From: Vicinamibacterales bacterium
GTDB lineage: Bacteria; Acidobacteriota; Vicinamibacteria; Vicinamibacterales; JAKQTR01
Length of the DNA: 64,000 nucleotides
Assembly: GCA_025456345.1 (NCBI GenBank)
Contig: JALOKU010000005.1
Span: 1 to 64,000 of the forward strand
Reading direction: 5' to 3'
Shown: one piece after another, positions 12,995 to 63,423 of the stretch
Layout: each line of letters opens with the position of its first letter
How positions within the stretch are numbered: position 1 is the stretch's first letter
Position numbers and translations under genes: made by a program
Notes under the pieces: model-generated
What the model saw: the letters and a program-made list of their open reading frames with translations, nothing else
Database searches by the model: none
What the model was told of the DNA's origin: nothing

Positions 12995-13906
12995 GTGCGC
13001 CGCTGGCTGACCCTCACTCCCTTCGACGGCCTGCTGCTCCTGATGGTCCTCATCTGGGGCGCGAACTACTCCGTCGTCAAGTCGGCCATCAGGGAAATCC
13101 CGCCCCAGGCGTTCAACGTCCTGAGGATGGGCGTGGCGTCGGCCGTGTTCGCGGCGGCGATTGCCGCCACGGGGCTGCCTCGCGTGGCGCGGGCCGACTG
13201 GCCGCGCCTGGCGTTGCTCGGCGCCATCGGCCACTTCGTGTACCAGGTCTGCTTCATGGCCGGCCTGGCGAGAACCACCGCGTCGAACAGCGCGCTCATC
13301 ATCGGCTGCTCGCCGGTGGCCGTCTCAATCGCCTCCGCCCTCGCCGGCCACGAGCGCGTGCCGCGCACGCAGTGGATCGGCGTCCTGCTGTCGGTCGGCG
13401 GTGTCTACCTCGTGGTCGGCTCGGGTGCGGAGTTCGGCGGGACCTCCCTCGCGGGCGACCTGTTCACGCTGGCGGCCGTCTGCTGCTGGGCGGTGTACAC
13501 GGTCGGATCGAGGCCCCTGCTGGCCCGTTACTCGCCCCTCACGGTGACCGCCCTCACGATGTTCGCCGGCACGGCGTTGTACGCCCCCGCATCGGCGGCG
13601 CAGATGGCGCAGGTCGACTGGGGGCGCGTGCCCGCGTGGGCGTGGGCGTCGATGGCGCTCTCGGCGGTGCTGGCGCTGAATGTCGCGTACCTGATCTGGT
13701 ACACCTCGGTGCAGCGCATCGGGAACATCCGCACCTCGGCGTACTCGAATCTGATTCCCATCGTCGCGATTGCGGTCGCCACGGTGGCGCTCGGAGAGGC
13801 GATCACCGCCAGGAAGCTGGCTGGCGCAGGCGCCATCCTCGTCGGGGTGGGCGTCACACGCCTGGCGGCAAGGACTCGGGACCCGGAGCCGCCTGCGGAA
13901 GAGTAG
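12995..13906 (+). CDS. EamA/DMT-family transporter
   Basis: A 303-residue inner-membrane carrier with ten helices in two EamA repeats. The first begins near residue 8 (FDGLLLLMVLIWGANYSVVKSA) and the second near 150 (LAGDLFTLAAVCCWAVYTVGSR). The end of each repeat has the family pattern, for example LGEAITARKLAGAGAILVGVGVTR near 270-293. The substrate of this drug/metabolite superfamily member cannot be told from sequence. It starts at a GTG. The next gene, a polysaccharide deacetylase, is 36 nt downstream on the same strand. Confidence 0.85.
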   Translation: MRRWLTLTPFDGLLLLMVLIWGANYSVVKSAIREIPPQAFNVLRMGVASAVFAAAIAATGLPRVARADWPRLALLGAIGHFVYQVCFMAGLARTTASNSALIIGCSPVAVSIASALAGHERVPRTQWIGVLLSVGGVYLVVGSGAEFGGTSLAGDLFTLAAVCCWAVYTVGSRPLLARYSPLTVTALTMFAGTALYAPASAAQMAQVDWGRVPAWAWASMALSAVLALNVAYLIWYTSVQRIGNIRTSAYSNLIPIVAIAVATVALGEAITARKLAGAGAILVGVGVTRLAARTRDPEPPAEE

Positions 13907-13942
13907 GACCGAGCCGGTCGAGCAGGGAGAACGGAGGCGAGG

Positions 13943-15007
13943 ATGGACGTGGGGCAGCCGGCAGGACCGTCGTACGAGGCATGGCTGATTCGCGCGCTTT
14001 TCCGGACGCACGCCTTTCGCGCGGCCAGGGCCCTGGCCCGCCGCCGGATCGTGATGGCGATGTATCACGGCTTCACGGCCGCCGATTCGCACGAGGGGAT
14101 CGAGAACCACGAGGGCAAGCACGTGCACGTCGGCCGGTTCCGGGAGCACCTGGCCTTTCTGAAGCGGCACCACAACGTCGTGCCGCTCGGCGACGTGGTC
14201 CAGGCGCTGAATGCCGGGACGCCCCTTCCCGAGCGGGCGGCGGTCATCACGATCGACGACGGGTACCGCTCCATCTACACGGTGGCGTACCCGGCCCTGC
14301 GCGAGTTCGGCCTCCCCGCATCGGTGTTCCTGACGACGGCATTCGTTGACAGCCGCCAGTACCTCTGGACCGATCGCGTGGAGTTCGCCGTCAATCGCGC
14401 CGCGGCGGGCGTGGTGGACCTGGCCTTCGGCGCGACAGCGCTCAGCCTGGACCTGAGGACCGTCGCCGGGAAACGGGCGGCCGAGAGCCGCCTCCGCGGG
14501 CTTCTGAAAGCCATGCCGCAGGAGTCACGGCTCGGCGCGGTCGAAGCGATCGAACGGGCCACCGGTTGCACGCTCCTCGACGCGGCCGGCGGGACCGAGC
14601 TCTACGAACCGCTCACGTGGAACGAGGCGGCGGAGATGGCGCGATCCGGCCTCGTCTCGATCGGCAGCCACACGCACACCCACGTCATCCTCGCGCGGTG
14701 CGACCCGGCTCGCGCCGCCGAAGAACTGCGCACGTCGAAGCGGATCATCGAAGGCCGGCTCGGCATGCCGTGCACGCTGTTCTGCTACCCGAACGGCCGC
14801 CACGGCGATTTCAACGCCGGCACCGGCGCGCAACTGCGGGCGGAAGGCTATGCCTGCGCGTTGACGACGGTTTACGGGGCGAACGGGCGCGGCGCGAATG
14901 TCTACGAACTGAAGCGGTACAACCTCGGCAAGCCGATGATCCCGGGCGAGCTGGAGGTTCGCCTGTCGGGGCTGTTCGACGTGAAGTCGCTCGCCAATCG
15001 CCGCTGA
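13943..15007 (+). CDS. Polysaccharide deacetylase (NodB/CE4 fold)
   Basis: A 354-residue CE4-type protein with no signal peptide. Motif 1 is VITIDDGYRS (D105, D106) and motif 2 is SHTHTH (242-247), giving the catalytic Asp and the metal-binding Asp-His-His set. A later FCYPNGRHGDFN segment matches motif 3. About 90 residues are inserted between motifs 1 and 2. Related proteins act on N-acetyl groups of polysaccharides or of lipid-linked intermediates. It opens the glycan region of 14-26 kb and ends 32 nt from a convergent methyltransferase gene. Confidence 0.82.
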   Translation: MDVGQPAGPSYEAWLIRALFRTHAFRAARALARRRIVMAMYHGFTAADSHEGIENHEGKHVHVGRFREHLAFLKRHHNVVPLGDVVQALNAGTPLPERAAVITIDDGYRSIYTVAYPALREFGLPASVFLTTAFVDSRQYLWTDRVEFAVNRAAAGVVDLAFGATALSLDLRTVAGKRAAESRLRGLLKAMPQESRLGAVEAIERATGCTLLDAAGGTELYEPLTWNEAAEMARSGLVSIGSHTHTHVILARCDPARAAEELRTSKRIIEGRLGMPCTLFCYPNGRHGDFNAGTGAQLRAEGYACALTTVYGANGRGANVYELKRYNLGKPMIPGELEVRLSGLFDVKSLANRR

Positions 15008-15039
15008 ATGACTGCGCGTGGCCGGCGCCGCGGCGCAGG

Positions 15040-15879
15040 TCAGCGCGCCGCCGCCATCACGAACTCGAGGTTGCCGATCACGATGTCCCGGGTGAGGGGG
15101 CTGTCGCGGAGCCAGGCGCCAGCCGCGCGCGGGAGGCGCCGGACGCTCCCGATCAGGTGCAACTGCTCGTGCTCGATCCGCAGGCCGGCGGCCTCGATGA
15201 GCGCGCGAAGCCGGCGCATCCTGACCTTCTCCAGCAGGTCGTCGTGCTTGGATACGCCCCGCTTCGCGTCGCGAATGAACGAGTTCTCGTGGGCCGGCTC
15301 GCGCAGCGTCCACGGAGCATGGCGGGCGAGCCACCGGAACGTGCGGAACGCCAGCGGTCTGCCGATCATCAGGTGGAGCGGTACCGGCACGAGCAGATGG
15401 GGCAGGTGGGCCCCGGCCGGCGAGAGGTACGGCGCCGTCGACAGATAGACGCGGCCCTCCGGCTTCATCACGCGCCGGCACTCGCGCAGGTACAGCCCGG
15501 CGTCGGCGACGTGCTCGATGACGGAGTGCGAGAGCACGAGATCGAAGGTGCCCGACGGGAAGGGCAGCGCCATCCCGTCCGCCCGGGCGAAGAGGACGTT
15601 CGGCCGGTTCCACTCGCGCGCGATGACGGCGCCGGCCTGGCTGAACCGATCCATGGGGTCGATGCCCACGACGTAGTCGGCGTGCTCGGCGAAGGAGAGC
15701 GGCATGCCGCCGCCCCCGCATCCGACGTCGATGACGCGCCCGCCAATCGGGACGCGGTGGCGGTCGAGGAAGGCGATGAGCTTCGCGCTCCGGTAGTACT
15801 CGAACAGGGCGTAGTCGTGCTCGGATCGGAAACGCCGTGTCGCGTGGTCCTTGATGAGGTCGTCCCTGATGTCGCGCAT
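15040..15879 (-). CDS. Class I SAM-dependent methyltransferase
   Basis: A 279-residue AdoMet methyltransferase. Motif I is GGRVIDVGCGGGGMPLSFAE (about 46-65), the acidic post-I residue follows in VVGIDPMDR, and LVLSHSVIEHVADAG is the methyltransf-11 type signature. The start ATG at 15879 lies 5 nt after the stop of the upstream GNAT gene, so the two form an operon. The substrate is probably a sugar or lipid-linked glycan, judged from the neighbours. The same frame is open far upstream, but that region belongs to the GNAT gene in another frame. Confidence 0.82.
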   Translation of the reverse strand: MRDIRDDLIKDHATRRFRSEHDYALFEYYRSAKLIAFLDRHRVPIGGRVIDVGCGGGGMPLSFAEHADYVVGIDPMDRFSQAGAVIAREWNRPNVLFARADGMALPFPSGTFDLVLSHSVIEHVADAGLYLRECRRVMKPEGRVYLSTAPYLSPAGAHLPHLLVPVPLHLMIGRPLAFRTFRWLARHAPWTLREPAHENSFIRDAKRGVSKHDDLLEKVRMRRLRALIEAAGLRIEHEQLHLIGSVRRLPRAAGAWLRDSPLTRDIVIGNLEFVMAAAR

Positions 15880-47023: not shown

Positions 47024-49264
47024 CTACCGAGTAAACGGCACCGCGTTCACGGTGGAATAGTTGTAGTTGTAGAAGACGAGGACCTTCGCCCCTCCGGTCA
47101 CAACCACTACTGGCGATGGCGAATTCGACCGCAGTCCGTCAACTTCAACGAGGCCGGAGCCATCAGCCCGACCATCAGCAGTGGCCACCATCGAAAGCAC
47201 CACGGCCTTGCCGTCGCCGCCGGGAGGGTCCTGACCACGGAATGCCAGCAGGTAGTCGTTTCCCGCCGGATCGTACGCCAGGCTGACCTGCGAGAAGGCG
47301 TCGTCTGAAATGGAAGCATTCGTGCGATCGGGGGCCTGGACGACATAGGGTTCCGAATCGAGAGGCGTACCGCTCAGTGAGTAGCGCATCCCGAAGATCT
47401 GTCCGCCGCTCGTATGGTTGACCCAGACCACCTGATAAACCTGTTCGACGGGGTTGAACACGACGTTCGCGTAGCGGCTCCACTGCCCGTACAGAATATT
47501 CTCCGTGGGGGCGATAGGTATGCCGTTCCCGTCGATCAAGGTGCGGTAGATCCCGCACTTGCCCGCCCACTCAAGCCCGGTGCAGTCGCGGTAGCCGACC
47601 ACCATCACGTTGCCGTCCGAACCGACCGCAAGCGCCGGATACGTCAGCGGGCTGACCTCCGTTGAGGCCGGACGCGTGATCTGATAGGCGGTGGCGAGCA
47701 CGCCGTCCCATGTTACCGGCATGGCCCATGCTTCTTGTTCGTAGGGGGGCGCGGCGGCGTATTTGGTCCAGGTCACCATGAAGCGCTGCGTCTGCGGCAA
47801 CCAGACGACATCGCCTCTGTGACGGCTGGTGTTACCGTTCACCTTGACCGGCGCGCCCACGAGCACGCCCCCGTCGTACTCGACCGCTTGAACGAACCGC
47901 GAGAAGCCGGAGTCAATGCCCGCATAACTCACGAGGAAGCGGCCGTCGCCACTGGCGGCAACGCGAGGGGCATAGCCGAGATATTCGTAGCCGGAGCCCT
48001 TCGAGACGAGAAACGGCTGGCTGTGCAGCTTGACACCAGCCTCATCGTAGAACTGGCCCCAGATGAAGTCCTTGCCGTTGTAGCTCGCTTGGAACGCCAG
48101 CAGGTATGTGCGGGTCCCGGCGTCGTAGACGGCGTGGTGCTCCATCCAACCACCGGTCGGGCCGATAATACCTGGCGGAACCACTGGCGGGACGACCGGG
48201 GGAGCGACCGGAGGAACGACCGGGGGAACGCCGGTGGTCGAGCCAGACGTCTGTATCAGCAATCCGCCGGGACCGACGAGGTACGTGCTGCCGAGAATCG
48301 TGACACTGGCCCCCGACATTGGATACGTGCAGCCGCCGTAGGTCACGTTCGTGCCGGCGACGGTCACAAAGGACCGATCCGCAGGAGGCGTCGTCGGGCA
48401 CGTCGGTGGCGGGGGAGTCGACAGGATGAGCAGTCCGCCTGGGCCCACGACGTAGGTGTTGCCGAGAATCGTGACGTTGGTCCCGGACATCGGGTACGTG
48501 CAGCCGCCGTAGGTCACGTTCGTGCCGCTGACGGTCACATAAGACCGATCCGCAGGCGGCGTCGTCGGGCATGTCGGCGTGGAGGCGGCTGAGACCGAGC
48601 CCGACGTCCGGATCAGCAGTCCGCCGGGACCGACGATGTAGGTGTTGCCGAGAATCGTGACGTAACTCCCGAACATCGCGTACGTGCAGCCGCCGTAGAT
48701 CGCGTTGGTGCCGCTGACGGTCACGTACGACCGATCCGCAGGCGGCGTAGTCGGACACGTCGTCGTGCCGCCTGTCGTTCCGCCCGTGGTACCGCCCGTG
48801 GTGCCGCCGGCCGGGGCGGTTGAACTCAGGATCAAGACGCCGCCCGGGCCCACGAGGTAAGTGTTTCCGAGGATCGTCACGCTGGCCCCGGACATCGGGT
48901 ACGTGCAGCCGCCGTAAACGGCGTTGGTGCCGCTCACAGTCACGTACGACCGATCCGCAGGCGGCGTAGTCGGGCACGTCGTCGTGCCGCCGGTGGTTCC
49001 GCCGACTGCCGCCGGCGTGCACGTGTCGCACCAGATCAGGATGCCTCCGGTGCGGACCCAGTACACCCTGGCGTTGATCGTGACCTTGTTGTCGACGATG
49101 GGGTAGGTCGCGCCGCCGTACTCGATGGTGGAACCGTTTTGGACCGCCACGAGAACTGCCTGGGCTGACGCGGTCGGCGCCATCGCTCCAACGAAGGCAA
49201 GCGCGAGGATGACAACGGCGGCGCTCATGAAAGTGATTCGTCTGTTCACGGCCTGTTTCCTCAT
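47024..49264 (-). CDS. Secreted protein with tandem Cys-containing modules and a C-terminal domain
   Basis: A 746-residue exported protein. The signal peptide ends near residue 34 (PTASA/QA). A divergent module (35-82) is followed by four near-identical 50-residue modules at 97-146, 170-219, 232-281 and 289-338. Each begins CPTTPPADRSYVTV, has a second Cys 23 residues later in YGGCTYPM, and ends VTILGNTYxVGPGG. Spacers are Gly/Thr-rich, then a PPVVPP linker (347-364) leads to a 380-residue domain with repeated strands (ITY.L.F...NG.., DGRFLVSYAG), which suggests a beta-propeller. No enzyme motif is seen. It may be a surface or adhesion protein. An AGGGA site lies 9 nt before the ATG. Confidence 0.8.
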   Translation of the reverse strand: MRKQAVNRRITFMSAAVVILALAFVGAMAPTASAQAVLVAVQNGSTIEYGGATYPIVDNKVTINARVYWVRTGGILIWCDTCTPAAVGGTTGGTTTCPTTPPADRSYVTVSGTNAVYGGCTYPMSGASVTILGNTYLVGPGGVLILSSTAPAGGTTGGTTGGTTGGTTTCPTTPPADRSYVTVSGTNAIYGGCTYAMFGSYVTILGNTYIVGPGGLLIRTSGSVSAASTPTCPTTPPADRSYVTVSGTNVTYGGCTYPMSGTNVTILGNTYVVGPGGLLILSTPPPPTCPTTPPADRSFVTVAGTNVTYGGCTYPMSGASVTILGSTYLVGPGGLLIQTSGSTTGVPPVVPPVAPPVVPPVVPPGIIGPTGGWMEHHAVYDAGTRTYLLAFQASYNGKDFIWGQFYDEAGVKLHSQPFLVSKGSGYEYLGYAPRVAASGDGRFLVSYAGIDSGFSRFVQAVEYDGGVLVGAPVKVNGNTSRHRGDVVWLPQTQRFMVTWTKYAAAPPYEQEAWAMPVTWDGVLATAYQITRPASTEVSPLTYPALAVGSDGNVMVVGYRDCTGLEWAGKCGIYRTLIDGNGIPIAPTENILYGQWSRYANVVFNPVEQVYQVVWVNHTSGGQIFGMRYSLSGTPLDSEPYVVQAPDRTNASISDDAFSQVSLAYDPAGNDYLLAFRGQDPPGGDGKAVVLSMVATADGRADGSGLVEVDGLRSNSPSPVVVVTGGAKVLVFYNYNYSTVNAVPFTR
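48251..48976 (-). repeat. Four in-frame 150-nt repeats inside the secreted-protein gene
   Basis: The units lie at 48827-48976, 48608-48757, 48422-48571 and 48251-48400. The DNA is strongly conserved between them, with long identical runs and spacers of variable length (36, 60 and 21 nt, apparently by loss or gain of GGTACC-type Gly-Thr codons). The similarity points to recent duplication or gene conversion, and the copy number may vary between strains. Confidence 0.85.
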
Positions 49265-49466: not shown

Positions 49467-50441
49467 TCAGGCGGCTGGCCGCCGCTCGCGCATGAACTCG
49501 ATGACCTCGGCGATGATCTCGTCGAGCGAGAGCCGCGGCTCGTAGCCGATGACCCGGCGGATCTTGGACAGGTCGGGCACGCGCCGGGCCATGTCCTCAA
49601 ACCCCGCTTCGTAGGCCACGTCGTAGGGAACCGTGACGATCTCCGATGCGCTCCCGGTCATGGCCTTCACCTTGCTCGCCAGCGCCCCGATGGTGATCTC
49701 CTGGTCGTTCCCGATGTTGAACACCTCGCCGACCGCGGCGGGTTCCCGCACGAGCCTCGCGAGCGCCCCGACGATGTCGCCAACATAACCGAAGCACCGG
49801 CTCTGCGTGCCGTCGCCGTGGACGGTCATCGGCTGACCCGCCAGCGCCTGGCGCACGAACGTCGGCAGCACCATCCCGTAGCGGCTGGTCTGCCGCGGGC
49901 CGACCGTGTTGAAAAGCCGCACGATGATGACCGGCAGCTTGCGTTCCTTCCAGTACGCCAGCGCGAGGAACTCGTCGATCGCCTTGCTGCAGGCGTAGGC
50001 CCAGCGGTGCCTGGTGGTGGCGCCCAGCTGCAGGTCGCCATCCTCGGAGAAGGGGACCTGCACGCTCTTGCCGTACACCTCGGAGGTCGACGCGACCAGC
50101 ACCAGCTTCTTCTTCTTGTTGGCGTGCTTGAGCACGACTTCGGTGCCGTGCACGTTGGTCTCGATCGTGCGGACCGGCTCCTCGACGATCAGGCGGACGC
50201 CGACCGCGGCGGCCAGGTGGAACACGACGTCGCAACCGTCGATGAGCTCGGCCAGCAGGGGTTCGTTCGCGATGGTGTCGATGGTGTACTGGAAGCCCGG
50301 GCGGCCCTTCAGGTGCGCGATGTTGTCGATCGAGCCGGTTGAGAGATTGTCGATGATCGACACCTCGTCGCCCTGCTGGAGCAGGAGTTCGGCCAGATGC
50401 GATCCGATGAAGCCGGCGCCGCCGGTGATCAATGCGCGCAC
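49467..50441 (-). CDS. NAD-dependent epimerase/dehydratase of nucleotide sugars (extended SDR)
   Basis: A 324-residue extended SDR. The NAD motif is TGGAGFIGSHLAE (residues 6-18), the active site is YACSK (YxxxK) with the Ser/Thr in VASTSEVYG, and NTVGPRQ and GDGTQSRCFGYVGDIV are typical substrate-domain motifs. Such enzymes act as UDP-sugar 4-epimerases, dehydratases or decarboxylases; the sequence alone does not decide. GTG start with GGAGGA in front. It is the last gene of the minus-strand cluster that contains the two CMP-synthetase-like genes. Confidence 0.85.
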   Translation of the reverse strand: MRALITGGAGFIGSHLAELLLQQGDEVSIIDNLSTGSIDNIAHLKGRPGFQYTIDTIANEPLLAELIDGCDVVFHLAAAVGVRLIVEEPVRTIETNVHGTEVVLKHANKKKKLVLVASTSEVYGKSVQVPFSEDGDLQLGATTRHRWAYACSKAIDEFLALAYWKERKLPVIIVRLFNTVGPRQTSRYGMVLPTFVRQALAGQPMTVHGDGTQSRCFGYVGDIVGALARLVREPAAVGEVFNIGNDQEITIGALASKVKAMTGSASEIVTVPYDVAYEAGFEDMARRVPDLSKIRRVIGYEPRLSLDEIIAEVIEFMRERRPAA

Positions 50442-50462: not shown

Positions 50463-51203
50463 CTAGCGAGGGATCCCGACGAACTGCTCGCCGGCCGGGA
50501 CGGCGCCCTCCGCCATGGCCGAGAGCAGGGTCTCGGCCACCAGCAGGCCAAACGGGTCCTGGGTGTCGATGAGGCCGAACCAGGATCGGACAGGCACCAG
50601 GCCGACGTTGCGGCCCGGGCCGAGCCCCTCGAACACCACGCTCGTGCGGCTCGCGCAGGCGAGCCCCGCCGCCTCGCGGAACAGGGGCAGGCGCCCGTCG
50701 CGCGTCGCGTCTCCGGCAGCTCCGACCTGCTGGATCTCGCCGCTCGGCGTCTGCAGCCAGAACGCGTGCCGCTCTTCCTGGGCCGTGAGCACGCTGTCGC
50801 AATCGCTCGATCGCAGCGCCTCCACCACGCGGTCCACCAGGCCTACCGGCCGCACCGGGTGGCTGGTTTCGAGCAGCACGACCGTGTCGAACCGATCGCC
50901 CTCCTGCTCGGCCAGCCACTGCACGCAGTGGCGGAGGACCTGCCAGATGGTCACCCCGGGCCGGGCCAGCTCCGCGGGCCGGAGGAACGGGACGTCGGCG
51001 CCAAGCGCGCGGGCCAGGTCCGCGGCGCCCCGGCCTTCGGTGCTGACCACCACACGGTCGACCAGCGCCGCGTCGAGGCCGGCCCGCACGGTGTAGGCGA
51101 GCAGCGGCTGTCCTCCGAGCATGCGAGGCTGGCCATCCACGAGGATGTCCGCTTCGCGCACCGGAATGATGCCGACGGCCCTGCCGGCGCTCCTGTTGGT
51201 CAC
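50463..51203 (-). CDS. Cytidylyltransferase-like protein with degenerate nucleotide loop
   Basis: A 246-residue protein of the CMP-sialate synthetase (NeuA) fold. The beta-strand AVGIIPVREADILVDGQPRM stands where NeuA has the PARGGSKGxPxKN nucleotide loop, so the conserved Arg-Gly-Gly-Ser-Lys signature is lost. The rest keeps the family layout (GGQPLLAYTVRAGLDAALVDRVVVSTE, VVLLETSHPVRPVGLVDRVVEAL). It may bind another nucleotide, act as a partner of the canonical NeuA at 53732, or be non-catalytic. The GTG start overlaps the GT2 stop... the upstream GT2 gene ends at 51200, giving a 4-nt overlap. Confidence 0.7.
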   Translation of the reverse strand: MTNRSAGRAVGIIPVREADILVDGQPRMLGGQPLLAYTVRAGLDAALVDRVVVSTEGRGAADLARALGADVPFLRPAELARPGVTIWQVLRHCVQWLAEQEGDRFDTVVLLETSHPVRPVGLVDRVVEALRSSDCDSVLTAQEERHAFWLQTPSGEIQQVGAAGDATRDGRLPLFREAAGLACASRTSVVFEGLGPGRNVGLVPVRSWFGLIDTQDPFGLLVAETLLSAMAEGAVPAGEQFVGIPR

Positions 51204-51886
51204 GACCCTTCTCCCGTCGCACCGTTCTGGATGAGCTCGATAATCCGGGCGACGCGCGCGGCCCGGTCCTCGTCGCGTCCCTGGTGGATGCCGTGGAAGT
51301 GGTAGACGCTCGCCTGGGGCTCGTACGCGATCTGCCAGCCCAGTTCCTGCGCCCGCCTCGCCCAGTCGCGATCCTCGACGCCGGGCAGGGCCTCATTGAA
51401 GGGCACCTCGGTCCAGACCGAGCGACGGATCATCGAGTTCGCGTTGTGGAAGAAGTGATCGCGGCGCTGGATGCGGCGGTCCCGGCCGAACGTCGTCCAG
51501 AGGTCCCGCTTGTCGAACGCCGTGCTGTCGGGGAACGGCTCCTGGCGCCCGTAGACGCCCGCGATCGCGGGCACGGTGAAGTTGGCCGCGAGGCGAAGCA
51601 GCCACCGCCCGTTGGCAGGCACGCAGTGGCCCGACAGGATGGCGACCAGATCGGCCGTCGTGGCCCGGATGCCGAGGTTCAGGGCCCGCCCGTGCGTGTA
51701 CTCGTGGTCCGGGATGCCGATCACCCGGCACCGGTAGCGCCGCGCGATCTCCACGGTGGCGTCGGTGGAGTCGTTGTCCACGACAACGATGTCCGCGTCT
51801 GCGTCCAGCTGGCGCGTGAGGGCGTCGAGGACGCGGGCGATCCACGCCTCTTCGTTCTTGGTCCTGATGAGGACGGCGGCCTTCAT
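51200..51886 (-). CDS. Glycosyltransferase family 2
   Basis: A 228-residue cytoplasmic GT-A enzyme. It begins MKAAVLIRTKNEEAWIARVL, has VVDNDSTDATVEIARRY (residues about 35-51) and the acceptor-side EDRDWARRAQELGWQIAYEP, the GT2 end motif with ED. The DXD-like position reads in the HCVPANGRW region. It is short and has no membrane segment. The ATG overlaps the stop of the NeuB-like gene by 4 nt and its own stop overlaps the start of the degenerate NeuA-like gene. It may transfer the CMP-activated sugar made by these neighbours, but GT2 enzymes rarely use CMP donors, so this is open. Confidence 0.85.
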   Translation of the reverse strand: MKAAVLIRTKNEEAWIARVLDALTRQLDADADIVVVDNDSTDATVEIARRYRCRVIGIPDHEYTHGRALNLGIRATTADLVAILSGHCVPANGRWLLRLAANFTVPAIAGVYGRQEPFPDSTAFDKRDLWTTFGRDRRIQRRDHFFHNANSMIRRSVWTEVPFNEALPGVEDRDWARRAQELGWQIAYEPQASVYHFHGIHQGRDEDRAARVARIIELIQNGATGEGS

Positions 51887-52875
51887 CGCACCAACCCGAA
51901 GGTGATGGGGTCGTCGGGCCTGAGGTCGAAGCGCGCCTGGCGTCCGACGACGACGGGCAGGTGCTCGACCGACAGGCCGCTGGCCGGGGCCTTGAACGCG
52001 ATCATGTCGCGGGTCAGCGTCGTGCCGGCAGCGACGGCGCGGGCGGCGACCAGGCCCGGGCGCATGTCGTCGACCCGGTCCAGTTCGTCGGGGTTGTAGC
52101 CGAGCAGCGCGCGCCGGCTCGCCTCGGCCAGCGCCCGGACGTTGCGGATCCGCGCACCCAGCCGGACGGCGGCGGCGTCGGCCTCGACATCGCCGGTACT
52201 GGCCGGAATCTGCATGACCGACGCCCCGACGGCGAGCGCCAGCGTCGCATGGCTCCGCGTCGGCCTGGCCTCGCTCCAGCCGACGCGGTGCCCGAGTGTG
52301 CACAGGTGGGCGATCATGGCGCAGTCGCGGAGCAGCGCCGAAGGCGGGGCGCTGCGCACCCGGTGCAGAAAGACCAGCTCGGTCCCGTGCAGGATCCCGC
52401 GCGCGGTGTCGATCTCTCGCGGCGTCGAGCCCCACGTGCAGAAATACACCCGCGTCGCCACTCCGGCGAGCGTCTCGAGCAGCGGGATGTTGGCGGCCAT
52501 CGCCTCGTCGACCTGCCACGCGTCGACGGCGGCGCCGTCCAGATCCAGGCACGACTGAATGTCGTAGGGTGCCACGACGATCCGCAGGCCGCCGAGGAGA
52601 GGCCGGAGGCTCTCGAGCAGCGCGGGCGTCAGCAGCGGCGCCGCATCGGTGGCGGCGGCCGCCTGGGGGTCCGGCCGGGACACCATGTGCGTGGTCCGCA
52701 CCGGGCGGACCGAGTAGTCGCCCGGGCGGCAGGCGATGAGTTTCACCGCGTCGGCGCCCGATCCCGCGAGGCGGGTCAGCAGCCCGCGGGCGGTCACCAT
52801 CCCGCCCCTGCGGAGCTCGTCGGCCGCCACCAGGACCTCGAGGGGCACGTCGCTGGCCCGGTCGCCGGCGCTCAT
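51883..52875 (-). CDS. NeuB-like protein with SAF domain, metal site lost
   Basis: A 330-residue protein built like N-acetylneuraminate synthase: a barrel (about 12-255) and a C-terminal SAF domain (about 272-328, RPGLVAARAVAAGTTLTRDMI...). The alignment landmarks are SGADAVKL (39-46), NIPLLETLAGVATRVYFCTWGST (129-151) and ALAVGASVMQIPAST. However, GYSDH reads GWSEA (199-203) and EKHFT reads MQIPA (221-225), so both Mn-binding His residues of NeuB (H215 and H236 in N. meningitidis) are missing. It is probably not an ordinary sialate synthase. It overlaps the DAHPS-like gene and the GT2 gene by 4 nt each. Confidence 0.72.
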   Translation of the reverse strand: MSAGDRASDVPLEVLVAADELRRGGMVTARGLLTRLAGSGADAVKLIACRPGDYSVRPVRTTHMVSRPDPQAAAATDAAPLLTPALLESLRPLLGGLRIVVAPYDIQSCLDLDGAAVDAWQVDEAMAANIPLLETLAGVATRVYFCTWGSTPREIDTARGILHGTELVFLHRVRSAPPSALLRDCAMIAHLCTLGHRVGWSEARPTRSHATLALAVGASVMQIPASTGDVEADAAAVRLGARIRNVRALAEASRRALLGYNPDELDRVDDMRPGLVAARAVAAGTTLTRDMIAFKAPASGLSVEHLPVVVGRQARFDLRPDDPITFGLVR

Positions 52876-53735
52876 GCGGTCCGCCCGACCACGGCGGCGA
52901 TGGCCCGCATCTCGCCCATCAGCGCGCCGAAGGCCTCGTAGTCCAACGCCTGCAGGGGATCGACGGCCGCCTTCTCGGGTTCGCGATGGACGTCGATGAT
53001 GATGCCGTCGGCGCCGACGGCGATGGCGCCGCGGGCGATGGGCGCGACGTACTTGCGTTTGAAGGTGGAGTGGCTCGGGTCGACAATCACCGGCAGGTGG
53101 GAATACTCGCGGACCGCGGGGACCACCTGCAGGTCGACGATGAAGCGCGAGGTGACCTCGTGCGTGTGGGGCGCGACCACGCCGCGCTCGCAGAGCACGA
53201 CCTGGGTGTTGCCGTGGTAGTAGAGGTACTCCGCCGCGCCCAGCCAGTCGCGCAGGCTGGCGCCGAAGTGGCGCTTCAGCAGGATCGGCTTGCCCGCCTT
53301 CGCCACCTCGATGAGCAGCGGGAAGTTCGACATGTTGCGGGCGCCGATCTGAAGCATGTCCGCGTGCTCGGCCACCGCCCCGACGGCGCGCACGTCCATC
53401 ACCTCGGTGACCACGGGCAGCCCGGTTTCCTTGCCGGCCTGCTGCAGCAGCGCCAGGCCCGGCATGCCCAGCTCCATCATGCTGCCGCGCCTGTACGGGA
53501 ACGTCAACGGCTTGAAGGCGCCCCCGCGAAGCATGTGCGCGCCGGCCCGCTTCACGGCGCGTGCGATGTCGAGCATCAGCTCTTCGTTCTCGACGGCGCA
53601 GGGGCCCGCGATCACGACGATGCCCGAGCCCCCGAACTCGGCCGGGCCCACCCGGACCGTGGTGGCGTGGCCCTCGTGGCGGCGCGCGACGAGCGGAATG
53701 TTGTTCTCGAGGTCGGCGGCGGAAATGTCCTTCAT
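52872..53735 (-). CDS. DAHP synthase-like (type I-beta) aldolase with altered substrate motif
   Basis: A 287-residue TIM-barrel enzyme of the DAHPS/KDO8PS superfamily, which condenses PEP with a phosphorylated aldose. The metal Cys is in AGPCAVE (C46), and the His is in VDPSH (H222); PEP-site motifs QIGARN (130-134), LLKR (152-155) and CERG (182-185) are kept. The sugar-site motif KPRTSPY reads KPLTFPY (75-81) and RNTLD reads SRFIVD. The Arg that binds erythrose 4-phosphate is thus lost, which suggests a different aldose. It overlaps its neighbours by 4 nt on both sides, in a sugar-nucleotide operon and not an aromatic operon. Confidence 0.8.
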   Translation of the reverse strand: MKDISAADLENNIPLVARRHEGHATTVRVGPAEFGGSGIVVIAGPCAVENEELMLDIARAVKRAGAHMLRGGAFKPLTFPYRRGSMMELGMPGLALLQQAGKETGLPVVTEVMDVRAVGAVAEHADMLQIGARNMSNFPLLIEVAKAGKPILLKRHFGASLRDWLGAAEYLYYHGNTQVVLCERGVVAPHTHEVTSRFIVDLQVVPAVREYSHLPVIVDPSHSTFKRKYVAPIARGAIAVGADGIIIDVHREPEKAAVDPLQALDYEAFGALMGEMRAIAAVVGRTA

Positions 53736-54469
53736 CGGTCGGATCCCTGCGCGGTGCCCTGGTGTGCCGGCCACTCGACCAGGACCTTTTCGGCGAGCCA
53801 CAGATCGAAGTCCGAGTGCACGTCCAGCATCACGCGGTCGTCGTCGGTGGCGATGATGTCGACGTTCGGGCCGACCCGGCGGCCGGCCCGGACCAGGTCG
53901 GCGCGCGTGGCGCAAGCGGTCGGCGTTTCCTCGCGATACAGCGGCTCGCGGTGCTGCCTGGATCCATACGGGATGTCGGCCGCGAGGCGGACGTAGCGCC
54001 CGTCGACCGCCCGCCAGTAGTTCTTGTGCGTGCGGAGGCCGACAAACACGGTGTCGAGGGCCGGGTCGGCGAGCAATCGCGAGACGGCCTCGTCGATCCA
54101 CGCCGGCTGCCGGAAGACGGCAGTGCAGGTCAGGAACACGACGATCTCGGCGCGGTAGCCCTCCTGATCGTCGAGCCACCGCACGGCGTGCTGGAGCGCG
54201 GCCTCGGTCGTGGCCTGGTCGTCGGCAAGCGTCGCCGGGCGCAGGAAGGGGGCTTCCGCCCCCAGCGCGCGCGCCGCGGCGGCGATGTCCTCGGCGTCGG
54301 TGGTGACAATCACCCGGTCGACCAGCGAGGAGGCAAGGGCCGGCTCGACCGCGTACGCGAGCAGCGACTTGCCCGCGAGCAGGCGGAGATGCTTGCCCGG
54401 GAGGCCCTTCGAACCGCCCCGGGCCGGGATGATGGCGACCACGCGCCTCGTGGACACGACGACAGGCAC
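53732..54469 (-). CDS. CMP-sialate-synthetase-like cytidylyltransferase (NeuA family)
   Basis: A 245-residue enzyme expected to make a CMP-sugar acid from CTP. The nucleotide loop is IIPARGGSKGLPGKHLRLLAGK (about 13-34), with the terminal Asn of the family replaced by His. The region VIVTTDAEDIAAAARALGAEAPFLRP and VVFLTCTAVFRQPAWIDEAV follow the NeuA/KdsB-like layout, and VMLDVHSDFDLWLAEK near the end gives the metal-binding Asp pair. GTG start. Its TGA overlaps the ATG of the DAHPS-like gene, so synthesis of an ulosonic acid and its CMP activation are translationally coupled. Confidence 0.85.
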   Translation of the reverse strand: MPVVVSTRRVVAIIPARGGSKGLPGKHLRLLAGKSLLAYAVEPALASSLVDRVIVTTDAEDIAAAARALGAEAPFLRPATLADDQATTEAALQHAVRWLDDQEGYRAEIVVFLTCTAVFRQPAWIDEAVSRLLADPALDTVFVGLRTHKNYWRAVDGRYVRLAADIPYGSRQHREPLYREETPTACATRADLVRAGRRVGPNVDIIATDDDRVMLDVHSDFDLWLAEKVLVEWPAHQGTAQGSDR

Positions 54470-54483: not shown

Positions 54484-56673
54484 CTACCAGACGTCGCGCA
54501 TCGCGTCGTACACCGCGCGGCGCACCGTTTCGTCAGCGAGCCCGCGCGCTTCGAAGTGGCGGCGGAGCACCACGTCGAACATCGCCGTGACGGCCTGCTG
54601 GATGTTCATCGGCTTGCCGTTCAGCACCGGGTGGCCGCTCAGACGGGCCTGGCGCAGGAGCACCGTCTCGAGCGGCGCGTAGACGATGTCGAAGACGCGC
54701 AGTGCGGGCGGCGCCGCGAGCAGCCGCGCGAGCGACTCGCGGTTGTTCCGCTCGACTTCGCCTGCCCCCGCTGCCAGACAGGCGCGGAGTGTCTCCGCGT
54801 CGGACTGGCCGCGCGGCGCCGGCACCGGCGCCGCGGGAGCCAGCGGCGAATACGGCTCGAGCGTGAACGCCCGCCCGCCGGCGTCGGCGCGGACACCCGC
54901 CTGGCCGCAGGACGTGCAGTTGATGAGCAGGTCCGCCGACCCCAGCAGCCGATCGAGATCCTCCAGCGGAGCGGCCGTGACCCGCGGGTTCACGTCCCGC
55001 GCCAGGGCCGCCACCGCGACGGCGTGATCGGCGGCCCGGCTGGCGATGGTGAGCGACCCCGGCCCGATGGCCCCGGCAAGCGCCACCGACACGGCGCGGC
55101 CTGCGCCGCCGGCGCCGACAAGCAGGACCCGCATCCCGTCAAGGCTCGGGATGAAGGGCGCCTCCCGGTCGCCGGGCCTGGTGAGTGCGGCGACCGCTCC
55201 GGCGGCGTCCGTGTTGTCGCCGACCAGCCCTCCGTCGGCGCGCCTGAAGATCGTGTTGACGGCGCCGATCGCGCTCGCCGCCGGCGTCAGGCCGTCCAGG
55301 TGCGGGACGATGTCGACTTTGTAGGGAACCGTGACGCTGCCGCCGACGTACCCCGGCCAGGCTCGGAGCGCCTTCACCAGGTCGCCGAGGCGATTGGCTG
55401 CGGTGTCGAAGGCGACAAACCGCGCGTCGATCGCCAGCCGGCGCAGCGCGTGGTTCCAGATCGACGGGCTCTTGGCTGTTTTCGAGGGCAGTTCGCCGAT
55501 GATGCCCGCCACGAGCCCCGAATCTTCGTCCAGCCCGTCCACCGTGTTGGTGAGGCAGGCGGCCACCGCGCGAACGTCACGGCGATCGTCTGCGGACGCA
55601 CGCACCGTGACGGGCGGGAGCCCCAGCTTCCGCGACGCCGGGTGGTCCTGCATGCGCACGCGCGTCTCCCGCTCGTGGCTGGCGTAAATCGCGTGCAGCA
55701 ACCGTATCGAGCGCAGGCCCTCGTCGCCGGGGATCTCGACCGGGCCGCCGTCCCGGATCGACGCGACGACGCGCTGGTAAAGCGTGTCGTGGCCGAAACC
55801 GTACGCGTTCGGCACGAACTCGAAGAAGTCCGTCTTCACCGTGGCGTCGTAGCTGCGCCGGTCGGCGAAGTCCCAGTGCTCGATCCGGTTCATCGCCAGG
55901 CCGCCCAGCACGATGACGCCGCCCTCGCCCAGCACGGACAACGACGCCTCGATGTCGCTCGGGCGCGTGGCGGTGGTCGCCTCGATGATGCCGAGGGCCC
56001 CGCTGCGGAAGCGCAGCGTGGCCACGCACAGGTCCTCGCACTCCATCTTCACCAGCCGCGTGGCGCAGGACGCGTCCACGTGCTCGATGTCCCCCATGCA
56101 CCACAGCAGCGCATCCAGATGATGGATGGCCTGCTGCGAGGTGACGCCGCCATCCATGAGCCACGTGCCATGCCAGTCGTCGAAGTCGTAATACGACTGG
56201 TCGCGGCACCAGCGCACGCGGACCGTCCCGCTGACCGGCCTGCCGAGGCGGCCCGAGGCGATCTCCCGGTGCGCGCGCGCGAGCGCCCGGTTGTAGCGGT
56301 TCTGGTGGGCCACCCACAGGTGCAGGCCCCGGCGCGCCGCCTCGCCGATCATCTCCTCGGCGTGCTCCGGGCGGAGGGCGACGGGTTTCTCGACGACCAC
56401 GTGCTTCCCGTGGCGGAGGGCCTCCATGGCGCGCGCGTAGTGGTCGCCGCTGGGCGTGGCGATGTCGACCACGTCAATCTCGGCCTCGCGGTACATCGCG
56501 GCCGCCGACGAGAACGCCGGAATGCCCAACTGCGCGGCGTATCGTTGCGCCCGCTCGGGCACGATGTCGCACACCGCCGAGAGCCGCGCCCCGGGCACGT
56601 GCCGGACCAGCGCGTCCACATGGCGCGTCGACACGCGGCCGCACCCTACGAGCCCGAATCGAACGTCGTTCAT
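54484..56673 (-). CDS. Gfo/Idh/MocA sugar dehydrogenase fused to shikimate dehydrogenase (AroE)
   Basis: A 729-residue two-domain protein. Residues about 5-345 are an NAD(P)-dependent Gfo/Idh/MocA oxidoreductase: GLVGCGRVSTRH (8-19), EKP (96-98) and the catalytic region DGGVTSQQAIHHLDALLW (175-192), resembling WbpB-type UDP-sugar dehydrogenases. Residues about 390-729 are AroE-like: GIIGELPSKTAKSPS (first binding Ser is Ala, second is kept), catalytic Lys in VTVPYKVD (K453), Asn in GAVNT (N474), Asp in GDNTD (D490), a second Rossmann loop VGAGGAGRA (520-528) and the Gln of MNIQQA. (Numbers count from a GTG one codon earlier.) It precedes the CMP-synthetase gene by 14 nt. Confidence 0.85.
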   Translation of the reverse strand: MNDVRFGLVGCGRVSTRHVDALVRHVPGARLSAVCDIVPERAQRYAAQLGIPAFSSAAAMYREAEIDVVDIATPSGDHYARAMEALRHGKHVVVEKPVALRPEHAEEMIGEAARRGLHLWVAHQNRYNRALARAHREIASGRLGRPVSGTVRVRWCRDQSYYDFDDWHGTWLMDGGVTSQQAIHHLDALLWCMGDIEHVDASCATRLVKMECEDLCVATLRFRSGALGIIEATTATRPSDIEASLSVLGEGGVIVLGGLAMNRIEHWDFADRRSYDATVKTDFFEFVPNAYGFGHDTLYQRVVASIRDGGPVEIPGDEGLRSIRLLHAIYASHERETRVRMQDHPASRKLGLPPVTVRASADDRRDVRAVAACLTNTVDGLDEDSGLVAGIIGELPSKTAKSPSIWNHALRRLAIDARFVAFDTAANRLGDLVKALRAWPGYVGGSVTVPYKVDIVPHLDGLTPAASAIGAVNTIFRRADGGLVGDNTDAAGAVAALTRPGDREAPFIPSLDGMRVLLVGAGGAGRAVSVALAGAIGPGSLTIASRAADHAVAVAALARDVNPRVTAAPLEDLDRLLGSADLLINCTSCGQAGVRADAGGRAFTLEPYSPLAPAAPVPAPRGQSDAETLRACLAAGAGEVERNNRESLARLLAAPPALRVFDIVYAPLETVLLRQARLSGHPVLNGKPMNIQQAVTAMFDVVLRRHFEARGLADETVRRAVYDAMRDVW

Positions 56674-56688
56674 CACCTGCGTTGATGC

Positions 56689-58539
56689 CTATTGCGGACC
56701 GCCGGACGCCCGCGCGAGATCGAGGATTGCGCCGACCGCCCGGTCTGCCGCCTGACCCGTTGGCAGCAGCTCGTATTCTGCCATGAATGCCTGCTGCCGC
56801 ATACGGAAGGCGGCCCGCGCGTCGTCGTCCGCAAGGAAGCGGTGCAGCACCGGCGCGACGTCGGCCGGCGACGCGCATCCGAGCATCACGCCCGCCTCGA
56901 CGAACGGGCTGAGGTAGTTGGGGAGATTGAGGGCGAGCGCCGGCACGCCGAGCGCCATCGCCTCGAGGGCGACCGTCGAGTTGACCGTGACCACGAGATC
57001 GGCAACGGCCAGCGTGGCGGCAAGATCGATGTCCGCCGGCGCCACCGTGATGTTCGGGGCCGCTCCGGCGAGCTTCACGTACGCGCCGGGCGTTTCTGCC
57101 GGGTGGCAGCGAACGGTGAGATGGACGCCCGGCGCCGAGCGCACGGCGTCGAACAGTGCCGCGAGCGAGTCGCGCGCGCGTTCGCGGTACTTGGTCGCCA
57201 GAATCAGGAGGCGCGCGTCTCCTGCCGCGCCGAAACGCCGGCGCGTCTCCCGGCGCGCGTCCTCGTCCTGCCGGCCCGCGGCCGACGCCAGCGCGTCGAG
57301 GCGCGGATTGCCCGTCACGATCAGGGCAGCCGCCGGCAGCGAGCCGGCCTCTTCCAGATGGCGCGCGGCGAACCGGTCGAACACCAGCGTGGCCGTCGGG
57401 CGCGGGAAGCCGAGATCCCCGGCGTTGCGCGCCGAAGGCGCGACCTCGTCCGCCAGGTGCCGGTAGTTGAGCCAGTGGCGGTGGATGAAGCCATGCTGCA
57501 GGCCGCACGTCGGGATTCCGCGCCGCCGGGCCTCGAGCACGAGCGCCCGGCCCCAGCCGCCGGCTTCGGCATAGGTCACGGCCACGGCGGGCCGTATCCG
57601 ATCGAGCGCCGCGGCGGCTTCGTCCATCGCCCGCGCCGACCAGGGCAGCTGAAGGTACGCGGCGCCGGTCAGTTCCCGGCGGATGAACCGCCAGAGATCG
57701 TATCCGCCGAAGACCGCGGCCTCGCGCAGATCCCGGCTGCGGCAGAGCAGGCGATCGATGCGCCCGCATCCCAGCATGTAGCCGAGCGACCCGGTGATGG
57801 CCCGCCATGGCGCGTAGGCTTCGACCGACTGCACGTCGGGCAGCGTCCCCTGCCATTCCTGAAGCCGTTTCGCGAGCGTCCGGGCGCGGAACGCCGTTGT
57901 CGGGCCCAGGCCCACGAAGATCACGTCCTCGGGCCGCACCTGCGCCACCAGCTGCCGGAGTATCGGCCCGACGTACGCCTCCCGTTCGGCGGTGTCACGC
58001 CAGAAGGCGGAGTGGACGAACACGGCGACCGGCCTGCGATCCGACGCGGCGGCAGCGCGCCGATGCCGGAGGCGCGACCCGACGGCCCTCAGGGCGAACT
58101 GGGCCGAGGCCGCCAGCGTGCCGGCGAACGTCAGCGCATCGCGCCACGGCCTCGGGCGGCTGCCGCGGTAGACGGCGCCGTGGCGCCTGGCGCCGATGGC
58201 CAGCACCTCGCGCGCGATCTCGTCGCCGCGGACCACCGCGACGGCCCGCGGCCGCAGCGCCGCAAAGAGATTCTCCGAGGCCGTCACGGCGCGGATGAGC
58301 GTTTCGATGACCCGCATGCGGTGGAGGTACACCTCGACGAACCACCACAGCGAGTCCCCGCGGTAGACGAGCCGGTCGCGCAGCGGGAGCCCGTCGAGGT
58401 CCGCGTGCCGCACGGCCTTGATCCACGCGATGGCCTCGCGGTCGGCCCTTTCGATCTCGGCGGGCGAGAGGAAGTCACCCAGGCGGACGCGCCGGCGGCC
58501 GGAGTCGCTCTCGACGACGACGACGGCATCTTCGATCAC
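56689..58539 (-). CDS. GT-B-type surface polysaccharide glycosyltransferase-like protein
   Basis: A 616-residue soluble protein. The C-terminal half looks like a GT-B glycosyltransferase of the capsule/CDP-glycerol-phosphotransferase type: GIPTCGLQHGFIHRHWLNYRH (about 370-390), VTGNPRLDAL, ILATKYRERARDSLAALFDAV, HLTVRCHPAETPG and VADLVVTVNSTVALEAMALGVPALALN near the end. The N-terminal 250 residues are a separate domain that I do not recognise. The start is the GTG at 58539, just after the upstream gene stop. It may attach the CMP-activated acid made by the genes downstream. Confidence 0.68.
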   Translation of the reverse strand: MIEDAVVVVESDSGRRRVRLGDFLSPAEIERADREAIAWIKAVRHADLDGLPLRDRLVYRGDSLWWFVEVYLHRMRVIETLIRAVTASENLFAALRPRAVAVVRGDEIAREVLAIGARRHGAVYRGSRPRPWRDALTFAGTLAASAQFALRAVGSRLRHRRAAAASDRRPVAVFVHSAFWRDTAEREAYVGPILRQLVAQVRPEDVIFVGLGPTTAFRARTLAKRLQEWQGTLPDVQSVEAYAPWRAITGSLGYMLGCGRIDRLLCRSRDLREAAVFGGYDLWRFIRRELTGAAYLQLPWSARAMDEAAAALDRIRPAVAVTYAEAGGWGRALVLEARRRGIPTCGLQHGFIHRHWLNYRHLADEVAPSARNAGDLGFPRPTATLVFDRFAARHLEEAGSLPAAALIVTGNPRLDALASAAGRQDEDARRETRRRFGAAGDARLLILATKYRERARDSLAALFDAVRSAPGVHLTVRCHPAETPGAYVKLAGAAPNITVAPADIDLAATLAVADLVVTVNSTVALEAMALGVPALALNLPNYLSPFVEAGVMLGCASPADVAPVLHRFLADDDARAAFRMRQQAFMAEYELLPTGQAADRAVGAILDLARASGGPQ

Positions 58540-58544: not shown

Positions 58545-59795
58545 TCAGCTTACCGTGTTCGAGGCCGCGGGGACGAGGCGCCGGGTGTCGGCGAGCAGCT
58601 CGCGCGCCGCGCGCAGCACCGCGTCGGTGCTCACCGCCTCCAGGCAATCCGGCGTGTGCCCGACGCACCGCGCGGGCGGCATGCGGATCCGGTTGCACGG
58701 GCTGCACGGCAGGTCGGTGCGCACGATGCGGCAGCGCGCGGCCAGCGGGCCCCAGCGATCGGGCGACGAGGGACCGAAGACGGCGACCAGCGGGACGCCC
58801 AGCACGGCGGCCAGGTGCATGGGGCCCGTGTCGGGCGTGATGAGCAGCGCCAGCCGCGTGAACACCGCCGCGAGGGCCACGATGTCGGCCCGCCCGACCA
58901 GATCGACGCACGGCACCTGCGGCGGCAGCGCGGCCCGAAGCGCGTCCGCGGCGGCCCGGTCTTCTGCGGCACCCGTCAGCACGATCGTGACGCCCTCGTC
59001 GGCGGCAAGGTGCGCGGCGACGGCGGCGAGGCGCGACACAGGCCACTCTTTCACCGCCCGGCCGGCCCCGATGTGAATGCCGACCAGCCGCCGGCCCGTC
59101 CGCGACGGCGCGGCGAGCGCCGAGTCCAGCCACTGGTCCGCCTGCGCCAGCGAGGACGGCGGCACCTCGATGGCGGCGCGAGGCAGCGCCGTCGCGGCCA
59201 GGCGGCCCTCGCCCGTCGGGAATGATCGGCCAACATCGTCTCCGAGCGCGGCACCGGCGAGGCGCCAGCCGTTGACGGCCGTGTGCGACGTCGGGTCGAA
59301 CGGCACGACGAGGTCCAGCAGCGGCCCGCCGCCAGCCATCCCGAAGCCGGCCTGGTACCGCGCGCCGGCAAGGCTCATGAGCAGGTGGCTCCGGATGTCG
59401 CCCTCGAGGTTGATCGCCAGGTCGTACGGCCGCTCGCGCCAGCCGCGCGCCTGGCGGGCCATCGCGGCCCATCCCGCGCCCGTCGACCCGCGCGCCAGCC
59501 ACGGCGCGTCCATCGTCTCGATGCGGCTGATCCCGGGGATGAGGCCGGCGAGGGACCGGTTCCAGCTGCCGACCACGAGATCGACCTCGGCGCGCGGCGC
59601 GCGCGAGCGGAGCAGATGGAGAGCCGGGAGCGACATGAGCAGATCGCCGATGCGTTCGATGCGCAGGACGAGGATGCGGCGGATGTCATCCGCGGCGGGT
59701 GGCCTGCGCCGCGGCCGGAACAAGGCGGCCACGCGCAGCCCGGCGTCGGCGGCGGCGACGGCCAGGCGCTCGCGGCGATCGGGGATGTGCAGCAC
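58545..59795 (-). CDS. Glycosyltransferase family 9 (heptosyltransferase-like)
   Basis: A 416-residue GT-B enzyme of the ADP-heptose:LPS heptosyltransferase family. Signatures are ILVLRIERIGDLLMSLPALHLLRSRAP (about 42-68), HIGAGRAVKEWPVSRLAAVAAHLA (about 240-263), and LITPDTGPMHLAAVLGVPLVAVFGPSSPDRWGP (about 310-340). The family transfers heptose or related sugars to the LPS core. A C-terminal Cys-rich part (LPCSPCNRIRMPPARCVGH) is common to family members. GTG start, with 4-5 nt gaps to both neighbours. Confidence 0.88.
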   Translation of the reverse strand: MLHIPDRRERLAVAAADAGLRVAALFRPRRRPPAADDIRRILVLRIERIGDLLMSLPALHLLRSRAPRAEVDLVVGSWNRSLAGLIPGISRIETMDAPWLARGSTGAGWAAMARQARGWRERPYDLAINLEGDIRSHLLMSLAGARYQAGFGMAGGGPLLDLVVPFDPTSHTAVNGWRLAGAALGDDVGRSFPTGEGRLAATALPRAAIEVPPSSLAQADQWLDSALAAPSRTGRRLVGIHIGAGRAVKEWPVSRLAAVAAHLAADEGVTIVLTGAAEDRAAADALRAALPPQVPCVDLVGRADIVALAAVFTRLALLITPDTGPMHLAAVLGVPLVAVFGPSSPDRWGPLAARCRIVRTDLPCSPCNRIRMPPARCVGHTPDCLEAVSTDAVLRAARELLADTRRLVPAASNTVS

Positions 59796-62328: not shown

Positions 62329-63423
62329 CTACGCCGTCAGGCGCCGGATGGCGCCGGCGACCGCCCGCAGGTCAGCCTCGGACATTCCCGGGTACAACGG
62401 CAGCGACAAGACCTGCGCGCAGACGCGATCCGCCTCCGGGCACACGGCTGGCGATAGGGCCTCGAGCGCCGGCTGCCGCGGGATCGGAACCGGGTAGTGA
62501 ATGAGCGTCTCGATCCCGTCCGCCCGCAGCGCCGCCTGCAACTGGTCGCGGCGCGGCGAGAGGATCGGAAACAGGTGGTAGACGTGCCCGGCGTCGCACT
62601 CGGGCGGGACTTCGAGGCCGGTCGCGGCGAGCAGCTGCCTGTACGTGGCGGCGCGGGCCCTGCGCGCCGCGGTCCAGCCCGCCAGCAGCGGCAGGCGCGC
62701 GGAGAGGATGGCCGCCTGCATCTCGTCGAGGCGGCTGTTCACGCCCATCTCGCCGTGGTGGTACCGGTCCGTCTGGCCGCCGTTGCGGATCCGCTTCATC
62801 CGCTCGGCAAGGCCGGCGTCGTTGGTCGTGATCGCACCGCCGTCGCCGAGGGCGCCCAGGTTCTTCGTGGGATAGAAACTGTAGGCGGCCGCCACGCCGG
62901 ACGACCCGACGGGCCGGCCTTCGCACGTCGCCAGGTGGGACTGGCAGCAGTCCTCGATCACCGCGAGGCCGCGCGCCCTCGCGATGGCCATGATGGCGCG
63001 CATGTCGGCCGGCTGGCCGTAGAGGTGCACCGGGAGAATCGCGGCGGTGCGCGGCGTGATGGCGGCTTCGATGGCCGATGGACTAATCGTCAGGCGGCGA
63101 GGATCGATGTCCGCGAACACCGGCGTCGCGCCGGCCATCATGCATGCCAGCGCGGTGTATGCCGCCGATACCGGCGTCGTGATCACCTCGTCGCCGGGAC
63201 CGAGGCCCAGCCCGCGGAGGATGATCGCAATCGCGTCGGTCCCGGTGCCGACGCCGACGGCGTGCGCCGCCCCGCACGCGGCGGCGAAGCTGCGTTCGAA
63301 CGCTTCGACTTCAGGCCCGAGCACGTACCATCCGCGCTCGACGACGCGCCGGATGGCGGCGTCGATGGCCGGACGATCCTCTCCCGGTACAAGGCGCATG
63401 AAGGGGACGCGGAATGTGGTCAT
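62329..63423 (-). CDS. DegT/DnrJ/EryC1/StrS-family sugar aminotransferase
   Basis: A 364-residue PLP enzyme that adds an amino group to a keto nucleotide sugar. PLP Lys is K187 in SFYPTKNLGALGDGG, the PLP-ring Asp is D158 in AVIEDCCQSH, and GTDAIAI and NSRLDEMQAAIL are family motifs. It begins RVPFMRLVPGEDRPAIDAAI as usual. The ATG overlaps the stop of the epimerase gene by 4 nt, a pairing consistent with amino-sugar synthesis (4-keto intermediate, then transamination) for the glycan. Confidence 0.92.
   Translation of the reverse strand: MTTFRVPFMRLVPGEDRPAIDAAIRRVVERGWYVLGPEVEAFERSFAAACGAAHAVGVGTGTDAIAIILRGLGLGPGDEVITTPVSAAYTALACMMAGATPVFADIDPRRLTISPSAIEAAITPRTAAILPVHLYGQPADMRAIMAIARARGLAVIEDCCQSHLATCEGRPVGSSGVAAAYSFYPTKNLGALGDGGAITTNDAGLAERMKRIRNGGQTDRYHHGEMGVNSRLDEMQAAILSARLPLLAGWTAARRARAATYRQLLAATGLEVPPECDAGHVYHLFPILSPRRDQLQAALRADGIETLIHYPVPIPRQPALEALSPAVCPEADRVCAQVLSLPLYPGMSEADLRAVAGAIRRLTA

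Follow-up and report, generated by a model that had tools for sequence, protein, structure and literature searches.

What would a bacterium gain by encoding a Gfo/Idh/MocA-type oxidoreductase and a relative of shikimate dehydrogenase (AroE) as a single polypeptide? Such a gene lies in the first 64,000 nucleotides of contig JALOKU010000005.1 (referred to as the window) from a member of the Vicinamibacterales within the phylum Acidobacteriota. The initial annotation, made from the sequence alone, described one reading frame with two complete domains, and the open reading frame, the Pfam matches, the AlphaFold2 model and full-length homologues bear this out. The frame runs uninterrupted on the minus strand from an ATG at 56673 to a stop codon at 54484-54486 and encodes 729 amino acids; an alternative GTG start one codon upstream would give 730, and the residue numbers of the initial annotation are higher by one because they were counted from that GTG. 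In Pfam, residues 4-340 match GFO_IDH_MocA (E=3e-30) together with the C-terminal domain of that family (E=1e-25), while residues 397-591 match both Shikimate_dh_N (E=8e-19) and Shikimate_DH (E=8e-9). The catalytic residues are present as claimed, Lys96 of the EKP motif and His184 in the Gfo half and Lys452, Asn473 and Asp489 in the AroE-like half. AlphaFold2 models the whole fusion with a mean pLDDT of 92.9, the sole low spot being the linker at residues ~351-360; outside this stretch the junction corresponds to a helix at the N-terminus of AroE-like relatives that are not fused. A structure search with the whole fusion listed matches to the Gfo half only, so the AroE half was folded (pLDDT 95.0) and searched by itself. 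Antisense to the gene, on the plus strand, there is a 709-aa open frame (54556-56685) that looks like a shadow frame of high-GC DNA rather than a gene. Table 1 lists the parts of the fused gene and its neighbours.

Table 1. The fused gene, its domains and the surrounding polysaccharide cluster in the window.
Feature	Coordinates	Strand	Remarks
SDR sugar epimerase/dehydratase, weakly LegB-like	49467..50441	-	
Second CMP-transferase-like protein, degenerate	50463..51203	-	RGGSK replaced
GT2 glycosyltransferase of the conserved module	51200..51892	-	
NeuB-like protein with SAF domain	51883..52875	-	without the NeuB N-terminal part
DAHP-synthase-like (DAHPS-like) protein	52872..53735	-	KPLT for KPRT; PHTH loop
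CMP-sugar transferase, PseF/acylneuraminate type	53732..54469	-	intact RGGSK; below PseF equivalog cut-off
Fused oxidoreductase gene	54484..56673	-	729 aa; ORF, Pfam, AlphaFold2, full-length homologues
AroE-fold domain, residues 387-729	54484..55515	-	Ala400, Ser402, Lys452, Asn473, Asp489, Arg546
Junction, residues 346-386	55516..55638	-	flexible stretch about 351-360
WlbA-type Gfo/Idh/MocA domain, residues 1-345	55639..56673	-	Asp36, Lys96, His184; 3q2k match
Glycosyltransferase-like protein upstream of the fusion	56689..58500	-	start provisional; frame open to 59502
GT9 heptosyltransferase-family protein	58545..59795	-	
DegT/DnrJ/EryC1 aminotransferase, same polysaccharide cluster	62329..63423	-	

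A frame of this kind could be an artefact in which a missed stop codon or an assembly error unites two neighbouring genes, and at two other loci (L067, L073) a separate Gfo gene does stand immediately before an AroE-like gene, in the order of the fusion and with ends overlapping by 4 bases. Full-length fusions in two further genomes, however, exclude a lost stop codon or sequencing error at the junction. A genome of another genus of the same family (G003, locus L042) encodes the fusion with 73% identity in an identical gene order, a Bacteriovoracaceae genome (L060) encodes it with 727 aa (46%), and the junctions align among these three genomes of two phyla. Coding bias also carries on through the junction: third-position GC is 0.80 in a 25-codon window there, compared with 0.94 for the Gfo half and 0.90 for the AroE half. 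The chance of an artefact appears negligible.

A search of 162 genomes from the order and 396 from the phylum gave AroE-like homologues at E 1e-30 in the window, G003 and an unfused case (G005) only, and of 290 genomes sampled on the Bdellovibrionota side L060 was the only one with the fused version. Outside the fused carriers, the Gfo and AroE-like parts are separate genes, often adjacent; in G005 (L043) and G102 (L045) these separate genes belong to a cluster of the same kind. As the three fused Gfo domains form a single clade in the Gfo tree (100/98), the most economical explanation would be one fusion event followed by transfer. A single event is neither backed nor contradicted by the AroE tree, and neither tree singles out an unfused lineage as the source. 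A phage or plasmid origin was considered and set aside: coverage of the fusion reached 80% in none of the plasmid or phage records, and viral scans yielded just a distant Gfo. A role in anti-phage defence was also discarded, with no PADLOC match.

The second domain had been labelled a shikimate dehydrogenase. It has the AroE fold, as the half modelled alone aligns with 2egg_A over 272 residues (Z 32.9, rmsd 1.8), and it shares with AroE the catalytic Lys, Asp, Asn, Gln and Tyr and the NADP-type Arg. Since Lys65, Asn86, Asp102, Tyr215 and Gln244 (E. coli AroE numbering) are kept, as is Arg150, in all 52 AroE-like sequences compared, catalysis in this family is probably intact. The carboxylate of shikimate is bound in AroE by Ser14 and Ser16 (PMC2789096). 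One of these two had been reported as Ala in the window protein, correctly so: Ser14 corresponds to Ala400, while Ser16 is kept as Ser402. The position of Ser14 is Ala, and Ser16 is kept, in 52/52 AroE-like sequences, an invariance that is partly built in, since this Ala formed part of one of the scan patterns. The window domain further differs from AroE in a WN following the SP motif, in an additional segment ahead of the last strands and in having no aro genes nearby; its lineage, separate from AroE, carries the motif PSxxA[KR]SPxxWN. All NCBIfam AroE equivalogs are missed, TIGR00507 with 146.2 bits against a cut-off of 200.2 and NF001319 with 157.2 against 252. A simple housekeeping AroE was ruled out as well, the genome having an ordinary AroD-AroE (L166, with SLSP) and two DAHP synthases that keep KPR, all on other contigs. 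The scores below the equivalog cut-offs, the loss of one carboxylate serine, the separate lineage and the AroD-AroE elsewhere speak against the original label, and as judged from its sequence the AroE-like half is very probably not a shikimate dehydrogenase.

Among the best structure matches of this half, 5-ketofructose reductase (7col_A, Z 31.9, rmsd 2.4 over 273 aligned residues) is tied with AroE entries. It has the AroE fold but is a stand-alone protein and only ~30% identical. This NADPH-using keto-sugar enzyme is related to shikimate dehydrogenases (PMC7954740) and provides a precedent for the reduction of sugars by the AroE fold.

For the Gfo half, the nearest known relative is WlbA (3q2k, E=1e-77), with UDP-GlcNAcA as its substrate. 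The two align across the whole domain (341 residues of 3q2k_A at Z 46.7, rmsd 1.5 and ~40% identity) and have in common the catalytic EKP Lys and His and the NAD-type Asp, but the window's Gfo domain is fused to an AroE-fold domain and set in a CMP-sugar module. Across 34 Gfo proteins of the module type described below, Lys96 is kept in 33, His184 in 34 and Asp36 in 32. With Asp36, which closes the second strand and usually marks NAD(H) binding, the Gfo half would be NAD-type, whereas Arg546 of the AroE-like half, equivalent to E. coli Arg150, is the usual mark of NADP(H). Both residues are nearly invariant across relatives. The proposal of the initial annotation that the two domains recycle NAD(P)H between them is not supported, such recycling being unlikely with one NAD(H) and one NADP(H) signature.

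The next gene of the operon, 14 bp past the fusion, encodes the CMP-sugar transferase, and it is followed by the DAHPS-like gene. The product of the latter is similar over its full length to type I-beta DAHP synthases (E=4e-78 to 1vs1) but has KPL for KPR, and PHTH where DAHP synthases read RTFE. The arginine of KPR[TS] is replaced by leucine in 46/46 DAHPS-like copies of the module. In structures of DAHP synthase, the KPR[TS] loop contacts erythrose 4-phosphate, and because this loop is altered to KPL, the aldehyde partner of the DAHPS-like enzyme has probably changed. As in metal-independent KDO8P synthases, Asn replaces the metal-ligand Cys in 34/44 DAHPS-like relatives; the window copy keeps the Cys.

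Other genes of the cluster show features of their own. The NeuB-like protein leaves the opening 68 positions of the NeuB profile unmatched, and a gene of its kind adjoins the DAHPS-like gene in few loci only. At 28 loci a relative of the degenerate second CMP-transferase-like protein is joined to the end of the GT2, and RGGSK is absent in 28/28. Its loss in these versions and in the window copy suggests a domain that is non-catalytic or repurposed. At 47024-49264, a predicted secreted protein has about five repeats of ~60 aa (CPTTPPADRSYVTVSGTN...GGCTYPM...VGPGG). A homologue of the C-terminal part occurs in G003 (L051, 34%).

The distribution of the gene set was followed in a genome-wide scan that yielded 80 loci, which were sorted by the AroE motif PSxxA[KR]SPxxW[ND] independently of their neighbours. 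The motif is present in 56 loci and absent from 24. DAHPS-like genes accompany it in 46 of the 56, GT2 genes in 44, CMP-transferases in 45 and Gfo genes in 38, whereas the 24 other AroE loci have three DAHPS-like genes and no Gfo, GT2 or CMP-transferase gene. Carriers of the motif include SAR116, Pelagibacteraceae, Thalassobaculaceae and Roseibium among the Pseudomonadota, as well as Cyanobacteriota (Prochlorococcus), Campylobacterota, Myxococcota, Thermodesulfobacteriota, Nitrospirota, Omnitrophota, Chloroflexota, Parcubacteria, Bdellovibrionota and Acidobacteriota, and the unfused partners occur with the DAHPS-like, CMP-transferase and GT2 genes in at least ten phyla. Thalassobaculum litoreum, Nisaea and Roseibium are examples of carriers that can be cultured. 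In three marine genomes (L118 at 5940-10867, L087, L125) five genes form a compact, mostly overlapping run in the order CMP-transferase, GT2 with a CMP-transferase-like tail, Gfo, DAHPS-like and AroE-like. This conserved cluster backs the earlier claim that two enzymes are truly fused, in a setting that is not aromatic, and since the unfused versions adjoin in it, the two partners very likely serve one pathway. They need not act on one molecule, however, because a Gfo gene within reach is absent in 18/56 motif loci (some of them truncated) and in three (L043, L062, L063) the Gfo is of a different subfamily.

The L045 cluster has a protein with a lactate-racemase (LarA) N-terminal domain (13856-15184) between the CMP-transferase and DAHPS-like genes. 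On plasmid 1 of Paraburkholderia caribensis (L039, 10001-11856), a separate, overlapping Gfo and AroE-like pair, the latter reading AKSPELFN, adjoins genes that resemble those for electron-transfer flavoproteins and transporters, which suggests that this pairing arose independently. A search of the open-access literature gave no description of the gene set. The Acinetobacter ela/aci genes were weighed as a precedent and rejected; ElaA is termed a putative oxidoreductase there, and shikimate is unmentioned.

The same neighbourhood could be read as an aromatic one after all. In the Rif-type aminoshikimate route, a Gfo protein (RifL), a DegT protein (RifK), a DAHP synthase (RifH) and an AroE-like protein (RifI) act together. 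With a DAHPS-like neighbour, Gfo and DegT in one cluster, and an AroE fold complete with all its catalytic residues, the second domain might truly be a dehydrogenase of shikimate or quinate, and the product of the cluster might be a shikimate- or aminoshikimate-like decoration. Yet the DAHPS-like protein is without KPR, the CMP-transferases and GT2 point to a sugar, and the AroE-like half scores under every AroE equivalog cut-off. Moreover, among the neighbour clusters shared by at least four loci, which were read by eye, no 3-dehydroquinate synthase-type cyclase or dehydratase was recognised. An aromatic role of this kind appears quite improbable.

It is also conceivable that the two domains serve two sugars, the Gfo half being a WlbA-type UDP-sugar 3-dehydrogenase that feeds the nearby DegT and the AroE-like half serving the CMP-sugar, so that the fusion would couple expression only. 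The Gfo half resembles WlbA over its whole length, and the DegT gene, 6 kb off, would fit a separate amino-sugar role; at 46%, its product resembles DegT proteins that adjoin WlbA-type Gfo genes on an Azospirillum plasmid and in G064. WlbA/WbpB oxidises C3 of a sugar acid ahead of amination by DegT (PMC10622841). However, among the annotated cluster genes one partner of WbpB in that pathway was found, the DegT (WbpE type), but neither a UDP-GlcNAc 6-dehydrogenase (WbpA) nor an N-acetyltransferase (WbpD). The fused and module Gfo genes, in addition, adjoin DAHPS-like and AroE-like genes, mostly without a DegT. We consider a division of labour between two sugars unlikely.

The reading we favour, with a probability of roughly 60%, is that the fusion, as a bifunctional oxidoreductase, serves a pathway dedicated to one kind of surface-polysaccharide building block, an acidic sugar that is derived from PEP, activated with CMP and then attached; that it belongs to a CMP-sugar pathway is in itself highly probable. 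The DAHPS-like enzyme would condense PEP with a sugar aldehyde other than erythrose 4-phosphate to an ulosonic-acid-type sugar. The Gfo domain would oxidise one hydroxyl with NAD+ and the AroE-like domain would then, probably, reduce a keto group with NADPH. Together they would tune the stereochemistry or oxidation state of the acidic sugar, or of a precursor of it, at a stage preceding or following CMP activation. The split NAD/NADP pair may drive this net oxidation and reduction one way. Were both domains to act on the same carbon, the two cofactors would drive its inversion and the fusion would let the keto intermediate pass directly from one enzyme to the other, an idea that we put forward tentatively and with some doubt. 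Whether the module as a whole (Gfo, KPL-bearing DAHPS-like, AroE-like, GT2 and CMP-transferase) is a widespread, undescribed route to a new class of CMP-activated PEP-derived acidic sugars in bacteria as diverse as Pelagibacter, Prochlorococcus and Acidobacteriota, with the window fusion pairing its oxidation and reduction in one polypeptide, is close to an even question, leaning slightly to the negative.

In many environmental bacteria, abundant marine lineages included, genes to which automatic annotation would give the names DAHP synthase and shikimate dehydrogenase thus belong to an apparent surface-sugar pathway. Such names would mislead reconstructions of aromatic synthesis and conceal an acidic sugar that may be new. 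The fusion suggests between which two enzymes substrate is passed. In its logic, a PEP-condensing synthase combined with a PseF-type CMP-transferase and a glycosyltransferase, the gene set agrees with the CMP-sugar pathways of legionaminic, pseudaminic and sialic acid. It departs from them in that the window has a DAHPS-like synthase and a NeuB/SAF remnant in place of a complete NeuB, and in that Gfo and AroE-like redox steps are added.
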